From Bacteriovoracaceae bacterium (GTDB lineage Bacteria > Bdellovibrionota > Bacteriovoracia > Bacteriovoracales > Bacteriovoracaceae): a DNA stretch of 64,000 nucleotides. Below the pieces are notes generated by a model that was given only the letters and a program-made list of their open reading frames with translations, was not told where the DNA came from and did not search any database. A program made the position numbers and the translations under genes. The stretch covers positions 186,001 to 250,000 of the forward strand of contig JAIPEG010000002.1 in the NCBI GenBank assembly GCA_021737405.1. The letters run 5' to 3'. Positions 18,532-24,855 of this stretch are shown here, piece by piece (the first letter of the stretch is position 1; each line of letters starts with the position of its first letter).

Positions 18532-19125
18532 ATGAGCTTCAAGGTTAAAGATCATTATTTTAAGAAAGCGAAGAAAGAAAACTTTTTGGCGCGAAGTGTC
18601 TATAAGTTAGAAGAGATTGATGAGAAATACAAAATAATTAGGCCAAAAGATATTGTGGTCGATTTTGGCTATCACCCGGGCTCATGGGTTCAATACACTG
18701 CAGAAAGGGTCGGTAGTGAGGGTCAGGTTATTGGGATTGATATAAAGCCCATTAGCAATAAGCTCTCGCCTCTTAAAAATGTACGCTTATATGAAAAATC
18801 GATATTTGATGTGAGTGTTTTGGAGGACTTAGAAATGTCTTCACTGTTTGATGTCGTTTTGTCGGATATGGCACCAAATACAACAGGCATAAAGTCGGTT
18901 GATCAGGATCGCAGTTTAAATTTAATAGAGGAAGTTTTTCATATATTACCCAAGTTTCTAAATCCAGGTGGAAACTTCGTCATAAAGGTTTTTGATTCAC
19001 ATCAAGCACAAGTCTTCTTAAAGGATAATAAGAAGATCTTTGAAGAGTTTCATCTATTAAAGCCAAAATCCACTCGTTCGATCTCTAAAGAATTTTTTGC
19101 TATCGGTAAAAGATATAAGGCATAA
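18532..19125 (+). CDS. rlmE: RlmE/FtsJ-family 23S rRNA 2'-O-methyltransferase
   Basis: About 197 residues from ATG 18532; an in-frame TTG at 18520 would add four residues. RrmJ-fold features: the N-terminal FLARSVYKLEEI with catalytic K, a SAM motif GYHPGSW in place of the usual GAAPGGW, the catalytic D in LSDMAPNTTG, K in FVIKVF and the final E in SKEFFAIG, completing the K-D-K-E tetrad. E. coli RlmE methylates U2552 of 23S rRNA during 50S maturation. The deviating SAM motif is notable but the catalytic residues are intact. Followed after eight bases by a PBP gene. Confidence 0.88.
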   Translation: MSFKVKDHYFKKAKKENFLARSVYKLEEIDEKYKIIRPKDIVVDFGYHPGSWVQYTAERVGSEGQVIGIDIKPISNKLSPLKNVRLYEKSIFDVSVLEDLEMSSLFDVVLSDMAPNTTGIKSVDQDRSLNLIEEVFHILPKFLNPGGNFVIKVFDSHQAQVFLKDNKKIFEEFHLLKPKSTRSISKEFFAIGKRYKA

Positions 19126-19133
19126 TAAAGGTT

Positions 19134-20381
19134 ATGACTTTATTGAACAAAAAATCATTAGTGCTTATTACCCTTTCGCTTTTTGGGATCGGATATTTCT
19201 TTAATAGCTATAAGGAAAGTGAAAATCAGAAATTTGAAAAAGATGCTTTAAGTTTTATAAAAGAATCAATAAGTCATCGCGTAGTAACAGAGAATTCCTT
19301 TCCGTCAAAAGTAAAGTTTGAAGATAAGGACTTTGAGATCACTTATACGATAGATTGGGAGCTACAAAAAGGAGTTGAGGGATTACTTAAAAGATTCGCC
19401 AACGATTATTCTGCTGTGGTCATTTTAGATAATAATAATGCAAATTTATTGGCCATCGCCGGAATCGATAAGGATAGTAATCAAATTAACTTCTCGCTTC
19501 CCTTCACCAGCACTCACCCATCCGCTTCCCTCTTTAAGATTATTACAACAGCCGACTTATTGGGGGGAGACAAGCTAGAGCCGCATACACAAATGAACTA
19601 TAGTGGGCGTGGGACAACTCTTTATAAGTATCAATTAAAAAATACAATTAGCCGATGGACTCGCTGGATAAGCTTTAAAAAGGCTTTTGCTTTTTCTAAC
19701 AATGTAATCTTTGGAAAAGCTGCCATTCAAAGGACCTCAGGTCACTCCATCTTTAAAAAGGCCTTCACGTTTGGGTTTAATCGTCAGCTTATGTATGATT
19801 TTAATCTCGGACCCTCTCGTTTTGTAATGCCAGAATCTCAGTATGAACTAGCTGAGCTTGCTTCGGGATTTAATAAAGAGACTCTTATTTCTCCTGTTCA
19901 TGCTGCCTTGTTGAGCTCGATCGTGGCGTCCGGAGGTTTCTTTAGGTCACCCTCCATTATAAGTGGACTAGAAAGTGAAAAGGATAATTTCAGTTATCCT
20001 CAGATTTCTGAAAAAATCCTTGATGACCAGACTGTGCATGACCTGGAACAAATGATGTCTCTTACTGTAACGAAAGGGACAGCAAGGCGGATATCAAAGG
20101 GGAAATTAGGAAAGAAGCTATCAAAGAGTTATGAGTTAGGTGCAAAGACTGGGAGCATAACTGGTGGTGTACCCTTTGGTAAAAGGGACTGGCTTACCCT
20201 CTATGCAAAACCTAAGGATAATAAAGACGATAAAGGTATTTCAATTGCCATAATGAATATAAATGGAAAGCGTTGGTATTATAAGTCCACGTTCTTGGCC
20301 AAAAGGCTTTTAGAGCTTTACTTGAAAAGAGAAGAATCTCCAGCTTCCTCTACTAAGATTTCAAGTAAGGATAAAAGCTAA
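19134..20381 (+). CDS. Penicillin-binding protein, transpeptidase domain only
   Basis: 415 residues with an N-terminal membrane anchor (residues 8-24) and a periplasmic transpeptidase domain. Active-site motifs: SLFK at 132-135, SNN at 188-190 and KTG at 338-340. There is no glycosyltransferase domain and hardly any dimerisation domain, so it is shorter than typical class B PBPs (about 600). It may cross-link peptidoglycan in elongation or in a specialised process. The C-terminal tail is charged. The next gene, lepB, starts directly after its stop, so the two are co-transcribed. Confidence 0.88.
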   Translation: MTLLNKKSLVLITLSLFGIGYFFNSYKESENQKFEKDALSFIKESISHRVVTENSFPSKVKFEDKDFEITYTIDWELQKGVEGLLKRFANDYSAVVILDNNNANLLAIAGIDKDSNQINFSLPFTSTHPSASLFKIITTADLLGGDKLEPHTQMNYSGRGTTLYKYQLKNTISRWTRWISFKKAFAFSNNVIFGKAAIQRTSGHSIFKKAFTFGFNRQLMYDFNLGPSRFVMPESQYELAELASGFNKETLISPVHAALLSSIVASGGFFRSPSIISGLESEKDNFSYPQISEKILDDQTVHDLEQMMSLTVTKGTARRISKGKLGKKLSKSYELGAKTGSITGGVPFGKRDWLTLYAKPKDNKDDKGISIAIMNINGKRWYYKSTFLAKRLLELYLKREESPASSTKISSKDKS

Positions 20382-21212
20382 ATGAGCACTGATATAAATT
20401 CAGGCGAGTCTGATTTTCATGATCCAGCGATAGACCAAGAAAGTAATAAATTAGAAGAAACTGAGGCGCTTAGGCCTCGACCATCAAAGCGCATTCGCTT
20501 TTTTAAAGAAGCAATGGCGCTTATTACGATTGGATTCCTTGTAATCGTCTTTAGGTCGGTTTTTTTTGAACCCTTTAAAATTCCGACAGGATCAATGATT
20601 CCCTCTCTTAGGATTGGGGATTTTATCTTAGTTAATAAGTTTGCGTACGGATTTAAGGTTCCCTTCTCGGATATGACGATTGGATCTATTAACCTTGATC
20701 CAATTTATTTGTTCGGAGAAAAAAAGGTCGAGCGTGGTGATGTAATCGTCTTTAAGTATCCGAAAGATCCTTCTATAAATTATATAAAAAGAGTGATTGC
20801 CCTGCCCGGTGAAACCATTGAAATAAAAAACAAAAAAGTTTTTATAAACGGTAGTCAGTTTGATGAAGCAAAGCTTGAAAACTCTGCCTTTATGAAAAAT
20901 ATGGATGAAAAATTTAAAGACAATAAGTTGGCATTCTATAGGGTGACATTGAAGGAAAAGAACTTTGACTATCAAGTTGATGAAGACAATTTTTTTAAAG
21001 TCGATTACGCCAAAAGAAAAATACCAGTTGGTCACTATTTTGTGATGGGTGACAATCGTGATTTTTCATATGATAGTCGTTATTGGGGCGTTGTTCCGCA
21101 TGAAAATATAAAAGGCCAAGCCTTTCTCGTTTGGTTATCAATAAATGTCTCAGAAAATTCAGAGGAAAGCTTTAGCCTTAGAAGTGAAAGAATTGGCGAA
21201 TTAATTCGCTAA
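20382..21212 (+). CDS. lepB: Signal peptidase I
   Basis: 276 residues: a hydrophilic N-terminus of 40, one membrane segment (about 43-60), then the periplasmic catalytic domain. The nucleophile S71 lies in IPTGSMIPSL, the general base K136 in NYIKRVIALPGE, and box E is MGDNRDFSYDSRYWG. It cleaves Sec signal peptides of exported proteins such as those encoded in this window. It starts at the base after the PBP stop. Its last 12 bases overlap the convergent mutS2 end. Confidence 0.96.
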   Translation: MSTDINSGESDFHDPAIDQESNKLEETEALRPRPSKRIRFFKEAMALITIGFLVIVFRSVFFEPFKIPTGSMIPSLRIGDFILVNKFAYGFKVPFSDMTIGSINLDPIYLFGEKKVERGDVIVFKYPKDPSINYIKRVIALPGETIEIKNKKVFINGSQFDEAKLENSAFMKNMDEKFKDNKLAFYRVTLKEKNFDYQVDEDNFFKVDYAKRKIPVGHYFVMGDNRDFSYDSRYWGVVPHENIKGQAFLVWLSINVSENSEESFSLRSERIGELIR

Positions 21213-23528
21213 CTCAACTCTCGTCGTGCCCATGTTCCCCTCAATGTGCCCGTATTGAATTTCATCTCTATGTTCTTGAAGAATGCTATTGAGTGCCTTT
21301 TTTAAAACTCCATCACCATGTCCGTGAATAATATCAACGAAGGGTAAGTCGCCATTAATGACGTCTAATATATAGCTTTCCGCCTTATTGATAAAGGGTT
21401 CTCTTCTCATGCCTCTAGCGTCCAAAACCATGCCTCTCGCTTCTCTATTCTTTTGAACATGAACATGGACTTGTGGTTTTTGTTGTAACTCCGTAGAGCC
21501 AAGTAAATCCTCAAGCTCCACCCAGATTTTGAGTTTTCCGGTCTCAATATGGGCCTTATTTTTATGAATTCTTAGTATTTTTCCCCGCTTATTAAGGGTT
21601 TTAATAACAACGAATTCCCCTACTTTAAAAAGATCCTTTGAGATGCCAGTTAGCCTCTGATCTTCTTTGGCTCCAAGCAAGTTCTCTTGGGATTTGTTGA
21701 GGCTTTGGCTTATTTTAACAACATTTCGAACCTCCCCTCTTTTTATATTCTCAGCCAAGTCGTAGGTTTCTTTTTTGAGTTTTTGCCATTTTTTATCGAA
21801 TTCACTTTGAAGTTTGCTGCGCTCAATATTTAGAAGGCTTTTAATTCGCTCCTTTTCAGTACTAACCTCATTTAATTCAAGCTCAACCTTTTCTTTAAGA
21901 AGTAGTGAGGATTCACGAATTTGATCGAGGTCCTGGATTTTATTATCGAAAACCTCTTTTGAAACAGAAACATTTCCAAGCCAACGAGAAATTCTTCTTT
22001 GTTCTAAATGGGTTCCTTCAATACTTAAAAAGACTTCTCTTGCAAAACTTTTCCCAGGTGAACCCATGTGGAAGACATAGGTCGGTGAACTTAGGCCCTT
22101 TAGAAAACCCATGTGTCCACTTTCTAATAACTTCTCATTAAAAGTTATTTCTTTAAGGTTTTCATGATGGCTAGAGATAAAAGGAATGGCACCAATGTGA
22201 GTAACTTCTTTTATAAGGGCGGTCGCGAGTTCAGAGGCTTCAAGTGAGGAGGTTGTATTAAAAATCTCATCAATAAAAATGATACTTGTGTCAGATAGTT
22301 GTTTAATGACGTGGATATAATTTAAGGCCTCTGAACTAAAGCTACTTAGGCCATCTTTCAAGCTTTGATTGTCATGGCTCATGAAAAAGATATCAGCGGT
22401 ATACCCAATGTCTGCTGCGGATGCAGGGATAAAGAATCCTAGATGGGGAAGGACAAAACAAAGACAAAGGCTTTTAAGAAGTACAGTTTTACCCCCAGTG
22501 TTTGGGCCACTTATCAGTAAACCCTTTTGATTACTCCGAAGAAAGATGTCATTCTTTATGGGATCTTCAATTAGAGGGTGAAAAACGTTTTCAATATTAA
22601 ATTTCTTTTCTTGGTTAAAGAGAGGCCTGTTAAGCTTAAATTTTTGTGCACACTTGAGTCTACCAGCGCATAGGTCGACTTCTAAAATATATGAAAAGAT
22701 TGTGTTTATTTGATTGTAATTTTTTGCTAGTTCATTAGTTAAAAATTGGAGGAGCTTGTAGGTTTCGCGCTCTAGTTCCGCCCGATACTCTTCGACCTTG
22801 TTCGATAGTTCACGCAAGGAAAAAGGTTCTACAAATAGGGTGTTGCCTGTGTTTGAACGATAGATAATCCTACCAAGCTGTCCATGATAGCGATCAGAGC
22901 GTACAGGAAGAATATATTTATCATCAAAAACATCATAATCATTTTGCTGGAGAATCTCTTCTTTTGCCCAGGCACTTGATATTTTTGAGAGCTTAACTCT
23001 AAGTTCCCTAGTCGTTTCATTAATTTTCTTGTCGATTTCTTTGAGCCTAGGATGCTTATAGGTAACAAGGGCTTGGGATTTAAAGTCGAATAAGAGCTCG
23101 GATTCTTTAAAAAATTGCTTAAATAATTTATTAAGTAAATTAGTGTCGAACGTATGTGAAAAGGGAAGTTTTACATCTTTATAAATTTGAAAAATTGATT
23201 GTATTAAAAGAAAGGTCTGAATAATCTCTTTATTTTCTGGGACTTGAGATTTCTCAATCTTCTTTAATACTTTAGAAAAAGGGAAGTCTGCTTCTATGTG
23301 GCGCAGGGCCTTGTTAAGAGATTCTTGCCACTCTGCAACACTTGCCAGGTAGTCCTGTTGTTCATAAATGTCTAAAATAGATTTAAGGGGTTGAGGCAAG
23401 AGATTGCTTTTAAGAAAATGATGGTTTTCATGAAACTTAAAACTAGGGTTAAACTTCTCAAGAAGCTCTAACAGGTCTATGTTGTCTTGTTCCTTAAGGT
23501 AAGAACCAGAAAGAATTGCAGGTACCAT
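21201..23528 (-). CDS. mutS2: MutS2: SMR-domain MutS paralogue, probable ribosome-collision/splitting ATPase
   Basis: 775 residues. After an N-terminal coiled/core region come Walker A GPNTGGKTVLLKS, a Walker B-like FIDEIFNTTSSLEAS (usual MutS2: DELGAGTDP), a long coiled coil, a KOW-like segment starting FKVGEFVVIKTLNKRGKI and a C-terminal Smr domain with VLDARGMRREP and DIIHGHGDGVLKKAL. It lacks the mismatch-recognition domain of MutS1. In Bacillus subtilis MutS2 binds collided ribosomes and splits them. The N-terminus and the P-loop-distal motifs are divergent. Its ATG overlaps by two bases the ATG of the divergent RqcH-like gene (CATG at 23526-23529). Confidence 0.9.
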   Translation of the reverse strand: MVPAILSGSYLKEQDNIDLLELLEKFNPSFKFHENHHFLKSNLLPQPLKSILDIYEQQDYLASVAEWQESLNKALRHIEADFPFSKVLKKIEKSQVPENKEIIQTFLLIQSIFQIYKDVKLPFSHTFDTNLLNKLFKQFFKESELLFDFKSQALVTYKHPRLKEIDKKINETTRELRVKLSKISSAWAKEEILQQNDYDVFDDKYILPVRSDRYHGQLGRIIYRSNTGNTLFVEPFSLRELSNKVEEYRAELERETYKLLQFLTNELAKNYNQINTIFSYILEVDLCAGRLKCAQKFKLNRPLFNQEKKFNIENVFHPLIEDPIKNDIFLRSNQKGLLISGPNTGGKTVLLKSLCLCFVLPHLGFFIPASAADIGYTADIFFMSHDNQSLKDGLSSFSSEALNYIHVIKQLSDTSIIFIDEIFNTTSSLEASELATALIKEVTHIGAIPFISSHHENLKEITFNEKLLESGHMGFLKGLSSPTYVFHMGSPGKSFAREVFLSIEGTHLEQRRISRWLGNVSVSKEVFDNKIQDLDQIRESSLLLKEKVELELNEVSTEKERIKSLLNIERSKLQSEFDKKWQKLKKETYDLAENIKRGEVRNVVKISQSLNKSQENLLGAKEDQRLTGISKDLFKVGEFVVIKTLNKRGKILRIHKNKAHIETGKLKIWVELEDLLGSTELQQKPQVHVHVQKNREARGMVLDARGMRREPFINKAESYILDVINGDLPFVDIIHGHGDGVLKKALNSILQEHRDEIQYGHIEGNMGTTRVELAN

Positions 23529-24855
23529 GAGTCAATCTCTTAAAAGCTTGAAAAATAAAGTCAGCGTGCTACGCCATCTTATCCAAGAAAAAGGTGATGG
23601 GCTAGTTCAACAGTGTACCAGTTCTCCACATTTTCTAAGTTTCCAAACAAGATTTAGGGGAAAAACGCTTTATTTATATTTTGGAAGGGGAGCCGGTTAT
23701 CAAGGATTTGATTTTAGCGAACAAAAGATACCAGCAGAGCTTAGAATCCAAGATAAATATCTTCATTTTGCCCGTAAGTACTGGAGAGGTATGAGACTCC
23801 TGGAGCTAACATCTTCAGAGAATGATCGAATCGTTACCATAAAAGCAATAAAGTTGGGTACGCCAATAATACTATGGTTTTTTTGGAGGGGTAGGGATCT
23901 CTTTTTTGCTCACAAGCACGAGTTGGCCAATCACATTGAAATTTTTAAAAGCTGGACCGGGTTTTCAAGAATTACGAATGAAGTGAACGTCGATTTAAAT
24001 GAGTCTGTGTTGTTTGGAGAACTTGGCTATGGTGAAGTAAAGGAAAGAAACAATGAGGGTGATTTTTCGATTGAGGAATACTTTGAAGCCTTTAAGAAAA
24101 TAAGCGTGCCAAAAGTCTCTAAGTCAAAAGTAAGAAATACAAAATCAAAAATTATTAACGATTTAAAAAGGTTTGAAATATTAAAATACCTTGAAAAGCA
24201 AACGAGCAAGGATTTAACAGATGTTAATGCCATCGGTGAGGGGCGCTTCTCGGTCAGTTTTCGTGGGATAGAGGGGCACTTTAAAAAAAGAGAGCACTTA
24301 TTTAATAAAATAAAAAAATGGAAGAAATCAGAATCCTTTCTATTAAATAGATTAAAAAGTCTAGAGGTTGAAGAACCAATTAAGAAAGAGGCTCAAAAGA
24401 AAAATATTGGAAAATCGATTCAACCAATATGGAAATTAAACAAGGAAAATCAGCTTGTAATAAAAATGCCAAAATTTATCCGGTTCACTTATAAAAGTTG
24501 GACGTGTTATTTGGGCAGAACTGCTGTTGAGAGTGATCAAATTAGAAAGGAGATCGCAAAAAAGGAAGATTGGTGGATTCACTTGGATGGATTGAGAAGT
24601 GGACACATGTTTATTAAATCAGGGAATGAGGATCCAACGCCGGCAGATTTGGAAATATTGGGCTCTGCGATGGTTGAGCTAAATGGTCTACAAATACAGG
24701 AAATACCGATTATATTTACAAGGGTAAAGAACCTCAAGGGCGTCAAAGGTGTTGCCGGCATGGTTAATTACAAAAAAGAAAAGCATATTGTTGTCTACTT
24801 TAGTCAACAATGGCGGCAAAACCTTACCTCATTTGAAGAAGATGCCAATGGTTGA
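23527..24855 (+). CDS. rqcH: RqcH/NFACT-family protein (ribosome quality control)
   Basis: 442 residues. The C-terminal NFACT-R part (about 325-430) carries YLGRTAVESDQIRKEIAKK, DWWIHLDGLRSGHMFIKS and IPIIFTRVKNLKGVKGVAG, which correspond in order to conserved blocks of B. subtilis RqcH. The N-terminal part has the NFACT-N pattern, including D100-R101 in ENDRIVTI, equivalent to the DR pair needed for tRNA binding and alanine tailing. It is shorter than B. subtilis RqcH (about 570), mainly in the coiled-coil middle. RqcH binds split 50S subunits carrying stalled nascent chains and adds C-terminal Ala tails. Divergent from mutS2 with overlapping start codons. Confidence 0.8.
   Translation: MSQSLKSLKNKVSVLRHLIQEKGDGLVQQCTSSPHFLSFQTRFRGKTLYLYFGRGAGYQGFDFSEQKIPAELRIQDKYLHFARKYWRGMRLLELTSSENDRIVTIKAIKLGTPIILWFFWRGRDLFFAHKHELANHIEIFKSWTGFSRITNEVNVDLNESVLFGELGYGEVKERNNEGDFSIEEYFEAFKKISVPKVSKSKVRNTKSKIINDLKRFEILKYLEKQTSKDLTDVNAIGEGRFSVSFRGIEGHFKKREHLFNKIKKWKKSESFLLNRLKSLEVEEPIKKEAQKKNIGKSIQPIWKLNKENQLVIKMPKFIRFTYKSWTCYLGRTAVESDQIRKEIAKKEDWWIHLDGLRSGHMFIKSGNEDPTPADLEILGSAMVELNGLQIQEIPIIFTRVKNLKGVKGVAGMVNYKKEKHIVVYFSQQWRQNLTSFEEDANG

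Follow-up and report, generated by a model that had tools for sequence, protein, structure and literature searches.

The genes for MutS2 and for a homologue of RqcH, two proteins of one ribosome-rescue pathway, start from the same four bases in a 64,000-nucleotide stretch of Bacteriovoracaceae DNA (assembly GCA_021737405.1, contig JAIPEG010000002.1, positions 186,001 to 250,000; hereafter the window). The two genes are divergent, and the CATG at 23526-23529, within aggtacCATGagtcaatc, contains the start codons of both. We confirm this as a true start-start overlap that is unusually well conserved, and we describe a block of synonymous constraint at the 5' end of rqcH in which the control region of mutS2 most likely lies. 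The features that define the overlap are as follows.

23526..23529, both strands: shared CATG (mutS2 ATG 23528-23526, minus strand; rqcH ATG 23527-23529, plus strand)
21201..23528, minus strand: mutS2, 775 residues, with a MutS_V ATPase (Walker A GPNTGGKT), an MSSS/KOW-type SH3 domain and an Smr domain, assigned by domain profiles
23527..24855, plus strand: rqcH-like gene, 442 residues, with an NFACT-N fold, a shortened middle and NFACT-R, assigned by family profile and fold
23532..23534, minus strand: in-frame TGA one codon 5' of the mutS2 ATG, ruling out a longer MutS2
23500..23502, plus strand: in-frame TAA 24 nt 5' of the rqcH ATG

Both genes start within one CATG

The initial annotation had assigned both starts to this CATG, an assignment borne out by the limits of the two reading frames and by the conserved N-termini of their products. 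With in-frame stops directly 5' of both ATGs, neither mutS2 nor rqcH has an alternative upstream start. The rqcH frame holds no ATG, GTG or TTG between its TAA and the ATG at 23527, and within the gene the next possible starts (TTG/GTG) come 7 and 13 codons in; internal starts would remove part of the conserved N-terminus of each protein. Relatives have homologous residues immediately following each ATG ('M-x-L-N-L-L' in MutS2; 'M-I-Q-x-Y' or 'M-x-Q-S' in RqcH), which supports the use of both codons. One survey found every long divergent overlap in databases to be misannotated (PMC2478687), and by that precedent the real starts would lie elsewhere and the overlap would be an artefact. This is very improbable for an overlap of just 2 nt, with upstream starts excluded by stops and with N-terminal conservation of both proteins beginning at residue 1 in 20 genera.

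Nor is the arrangement due to chance. Among 109 divergent gene pairs in 850 kb (330 kb of the window's contig, from genome G000, and 520 kb of genome G008), an in-frame shared CATG occurs twice, both times at mutS2/rqcH, and divergent gaps in these stretches are mostly 40-250 bp. Divergent overlaps make up about 1% of gene overlaps (457 of ~42,000, PMC2478687) and are under-represented (PMC2478687, PMC2174442).

Conservation of the overlap

We took the window's family to be GTDB Bacteriovoracaceae, an assignment inferred with the help of named records that place it among Bacteriovoracaceae and Halobacteriovorax. Forty-six genomes of the family carry both genes divergently on one contig. Counting a CATG at the start of the family profiles, within three residues either way, we found the exact in-frame shared CATG in 35 of these 46 pairs, spread over 20 genera and over proteins down to ~25% identity; all seven genomes of the window's genus have it, as does Halobacteriovorax marinus (L201). 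The remaining pairs abut (CATATG; L047, L133), lie a few to ~50 bases apart or use other starts. A tree of the concatenated proteins shows the CATG state in almost every deep part of the family, with 8 changes required against 14.2 when labels are shuffled; by parsimony, this fits an old presence of the overlap with about eight changes. One divergent pair (L119, genome G060) sits on very long branches of the tree, with a MutS2-like frame covering the first 60% of the profile and a 395-residue NFACT protein.

Outside the family, the divergent pair occurs without overlap in three further families of the phylum, with the genes ~6-95 bp apart. In family f7 (L104, L182) the two genes are linked independently: they share a strand, and rqcH immediately precedes mutS2 with next to no space between them. 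In Bdellovibrio-like genomes the two genes are far apart. The overlap is therefore widespread in the window's family and not across Bdellovibrionota as a whole. When named genomes were scanned with the MutS2 alignment, the 80 top-ranking MutS2 loci included 63 that had no NFACT gene within 4 kb, and almost all of these 63 came from other phyla.

Synonymous constraint at the 5' end of rqcH

Synonymous constraint was measured as the fraction of identical amino acids encoded by the same codon in pairs of genomes with the shared CATG. The stretches concerned are these.

23530..23616, on the 5' side of mutS2 (minus strand): rqcH codons 2-30, the synonymous-constraint block and putative mutS2 control region
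23442..23525: mutS2 codons 2-~29, which must hold the rqcH leader unless that mRNA is leaderless; weak constraint
23520-23523: AGGT shortly 5' of the rqcH ATG

In rqcH codons 2-30 the pooled same-codon fraction is 0.74 against 0.49 elsewhere, a value matched by none of 371 other 29-codon windows. Nine near-independent pairs gave 0.77 against 0.49 (Cochran-Mantel-Haenszel odds ratio 3.47, p 4e-13), with all nine raised. Codons 31-60 have no excess, and the constraint ends sharply at codon 30. Other genes of these loci scored 0.54 against 0.51 at their 5' ends in 50 comparisons; this control list includes the mutS2 and rqcH genes of L192/L193, which if anything raises the control value. Unlinked rqcH from 14 genomes of a Bdellovibrio-like genus scored 0.47 against 0.43. 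Pairs that abut without overlapping retain the rqcH 5' constraint (0.69-0.79), and the one pair in which a spacer has been regained lacks it (0.22, n=9 codons).

Close to the start of a bacterial gene, synonymous sites are generally somewhat constrained, and the constrained stretch does sit at the 5' end of rqcH, where it could serve the rqcH mRNA itself, whether in initiating translation, in early elongation or as part of an RNA element. We consider this unlikely, because the constraint is absent from unlinked rqcH, from mutS2 itself and from the 50 control gene pairs, extends as far as codon 30 before falling to baseline, and is accompanied by no fold signal on the rqcH sense strand (mean z -0.03). 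The strand antisense to rqcH 1-99 folds, if anything, a little less than its synonymous shuffles do (mean z +0.5 over 41 genomes), and RNA structure was rejected as the cause of the constraint, having no signal on either strand. An antisense leader peptide within rqcH codons 2-30 was likewise set aside, no conserved ATG being seen by eye in the sequences of the genus.

The constraint, taken together with these controls, makes it most likely that the mutS2 control region lies inside rqcH codons 2-30. With no intergenic DNA, the simplest reading of the sequences is that the mutS2 promoter and leader would both fall within the initial 90 nt of rqcH. The initial annotation had placed the promoters of each gene inside its partner; for mutS2 this agrees with the strong rqcH constraint, and for rqcH it has the weaker backing of mutS2 codons 2-30 (p = 0.02). 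The highest synonymous conservation in mutS2 is found further in, at codons 45-73 (about 23396-23310; 0.58-0.63 against 0.47), which could be the site of an rqcH promoter with a long leader.

Several points weigh against an embedded control region for each gene and against the wider reading built on it. The mutS2 excess is small (0.56 against 0.47 at codons 2-30, Cochran-Mantel-Haenszel p 0.02), and the spacer control is one pair with 9 informative codons. No sigma-70 consensus pair occurs in the window, a motif search over 28 genomes returned nothing convincing across genera, and promoter scores for mutS2 in real rqcH 5' ends rise only slightly above those of synonymously shuffled ones (mean percentile 0.63, 41 genomes). 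A literature search for transcript data on the window's family found none. The background rate of shared starts comes from two genomes only and a simple gene caller. Fewer synonymous changes at gene starts can also have other causes, a possibility that the controls make smaller without removing it.

A ribosome site for each gene within the other's coding sequence, as first proposed, holds as geometry and finds little match in the sequences: in most genera no Shine-Dalgarno sequence precedes mutS2 (4-nt match in 0.23, against ~0.28 for random sequence and ~0.6 for genome starts), and a weak one precedes rqcH. The missing mutS2 site would be expected if one or both mRNAs were leaderless, with transcription starting at the CATG itself and no ribosome site in the partner gene, and in several genera (L039, L048, L049, L053) a TATAAT-like hexamer does lie 8 nt 5' of the mutS2 ATG. 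The hexamer is missing in most genera, including the window's own, and the constraint spans 90 nt upstream of mutS2 where a leaderless promoter needs ~40 nt. We therefore think leaderless transcription improbable, and leaderless mutS2 as a general rule was rejected, since the -10-like hexamers occur in some genera only.

The MutS2 and RqcH proteins

Judged by its sequence, the minus-strand gene is MutS2 (RqcU). Its product matches MutS_V (PF00488, 4e-21), a C-terminal Smr domain (PF01713, 4e-10) and MSSS (PF20297, 3e-7), contains Walker A and B motifs, has a D420-E421 pair that is invariant in 27 relatives, and aligns over residues 163-773 with Bacillus subtilis MutS2 in the ribosome-bound structure PDB 8qpp (E 1.7e-56). 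At 385 bits it falls narrowly below the NCBIfam TIGR01069 cut-off of 400, which is a calling threshold and not a biological feature. It is the only full-length MutS2 in the assembly, a second TIGR01069 match being partial and MutS-like. ATP-dependent splitting of collided ribosomes by this protein is predicted by carrying over the function of its family (PMC10897456).

The plus-strand protein is more divergent, and alone it gives weak PDB matches and 28.3 bits to NFACT-R (PF05670), under the cut-off of 29.8; in the genome search it reached 30.8 bits. The wider family is clearer. NFACT-R is matched in 32 of 33 family members at E <= 0.01, NFACT-N (PF05833) directly in 13 of the 33, and an alignment of 33 relatives matches B. 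subtilis RqcH 7aqc with a profile E of 4e-22. Family profile positions 19-112 align with RqcH 15-109, a weak match on its own, and the profile then skips from RqcH residue 109 to 266. An AlphaFold (AF2) model of the product (mean predicted local distance difference test score, pLDDT, 88) has RqcH 8s1u and 7aqc as its best Foldseek matches, and RqcH and NFACT-N structures are among its matches. The D97-R98 pair required for alanine tailing in B. subtilis RqcH is kept, the window's 'NDRIV' and the family's 'DR' column aligning with RqcH 'LDRIM'; structure 7ope, a DR variant, aligns 'AA' at this position. Its membership of the NFACT family, which the initial annotation had proposed, is upheld by profile and fold, and from these we infer a shortened RqcH homologue, for which 50S binding and C-terminal alanine tailing are predicted from the family.

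Unlike B. subtilis RqcH, this homologue lacks ~115 residues in mid-protein, presumably the helix-hairpin-helix region. In its middle the model has just two short helices (159-166, 182-190) and a single long one (251-281), and neither a helix-hairpin-helix nor a full coiled coil was found there. Elsewhere in the phylum, too, there are families with short RqcH forms of 420-450 residues. The assembly has no NFACT-R locus other than the gene at 23527-24855. Three other genomes (G032, G013 and G040, at L060, L056 and L066) have an rqcH-like gene without full-length MutS2, and the L060 protein carries an extra insert of ~80 residues.

Discussion

MutS2 acts upstream of RqcH in ribosome quality control (PMC10897456, PMC11633108), and the two genes co-occur across bacteria (PMC11633108). 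The order given in the initial annotation, in which MutS2 splits collided ribosomes before RqcH acts, agrees with this published work. Our counts in 144 genomes of the phylum (both genes in 115, neither in 26, rqcH only in 3, full-length mutS2 only in none) agree with the pan-bacterial pattern and reproduce it inside one phylum. The same two protein families form the B. subtilis MutS2/RqcU-RqcH pathway (PMC10897456, PMC11633108), with Walker motifs, KOW-type and Smr domains in MutS2 and the NFACT-N fold, D-R pair and NFACT-R in RqcH. The genes described here differ in being divergent with a shared start, whereas gene adjacency goes unmentioned in the available text of those two papers. The pathway is already published, and the overlap is a new arrangement of known parts.

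Overall, we consider it probable that mutS2 and rqcH form a ribosome-quality-control pair packed head to head, with embedded control regions and coupled output. As established for the two families, MutS2 would split collided ribosomes and the RqcH homologue would take the released 50S-peptidyl-tRNA. With zero intergenic DNA between the genes, the mutS2 promoter and leader would lie opposite roughly codons 1-30 of rqcH, where the constraint suggests a promoter, and rqcH codons 2-30 would then hold protein-coding and regulatory information in the same bases. The rqcH promoter would lie in the 5' part of mutS2, as the geometry implies and some weak sequence evidence suggests. mRNAs carrying their own start codons would be antisense to each other over 2 nt or more, and RNA polymerase sitting on either promoter would block the other one, coupling output at the level of DNA, most likely by mutual exclusion. 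Because the 5' ends are antisense and polymerase binding is probably exclusive, interference is at least as likely as co-expression, and the geometry favours interference or exclusion over simple co-expression. Tied expression, as first suggested, is plausible and could take the form of co-activation or of interference. A stronger version, a long-lived switch throughout the family that makes transcription of MutS2 and RqcH mutually exclusive on each DNA copy (and their translation too, via 5' antisense pairing), is doubtful; it would set a fixed or oscillating ratio of the splitter MutS2 to the tail-adding RqcH.

Persistence of the CATG would be expected where substitution of its central A or T harms both starts and nearby stops keep either gene from easily extending upstream. 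The same point serves an account in which drift produced the overlap a single time and it was then simply frozen, without any regulatory role and with ordinary promoters inside the partner genes. We hold this to be a serious possibility, if somewhat short of even: the eight changes on the tree show that the overlap can go while the genes stay, and other families keep the divergent pair ~6-95 bp apart. By itself, drift leaves retention in 35 of 46 pairs over such protein divergence unexplained, though it is compatible with embedded promoters. It is only partly separable from the coupled pair, since retention and constraint do not show coupling; both accounts include an embedded control region and differ only in selection on the overlap, and our confidences in the two are not exclusive.

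Short divergent start-start overlaps have been described (PMC2174442, PMC2478687), likewise with overlapping 5' ends. Such cases are uncommon, and annotation error is the usual suspicion; unlike that class generally, one and the same overlap is kept here across ~20 genera. Bacterial bidirectional promoters (PMC12825309, PMC10268837) likewise serve two divergent units from one short DNA stretch with exclusive polymerase binding, but their transcripts run apart, whereas here the starts overlap, the transcripts would overlap in antisense and the promoters would be crossed over instead of back to back. Co-directional ATGA/TGATG stop-start overlaps with translational coupling (PMC6728339) share the minimal overlap of neighbours; in contrast, mutS2 and rqcH lie on opposite strands, with no passage of ribosomes between them. 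The synonymous constraint offers independent evidence of coding and control information in the same bases, and the overlap adds genomic linkage to a pathway in which biochemistry and co-occurrence had connected the two steps. For the effects of crossed-over divergent promoters, predatory bacteria that can be cultured, such as Halobacteriovorax, provide a natural system.

Genome context

The window's assembly also encodes transfer-messenger RNA and SmpB. A search for RqcP, an S4-domain protein, returned three clear S4 proteins in frames of 230-354 residues and a weak 71-residue S4 open reading frame, with no clear RqcP found in this genome, which is 84% complete. The small frame (L287:1456-1671) looks by eye YbcJ-like and unlike RqcP, and adjoins a gene for an RbgA-like GTPase. 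A plasmid search gave no match. The region 18535-21212 carries rlmE/ftsJ, a short transpeptidase-only gene resembling those of penicillin-binding proteins, and lepB, leading into mutS2; lepB and mutS2 are convergent, with 3' ends overlapping by 12 bp. Homologues of RlmE, LepB and other flanking genes recur beside the mutS2/rqcH pair in relatives.

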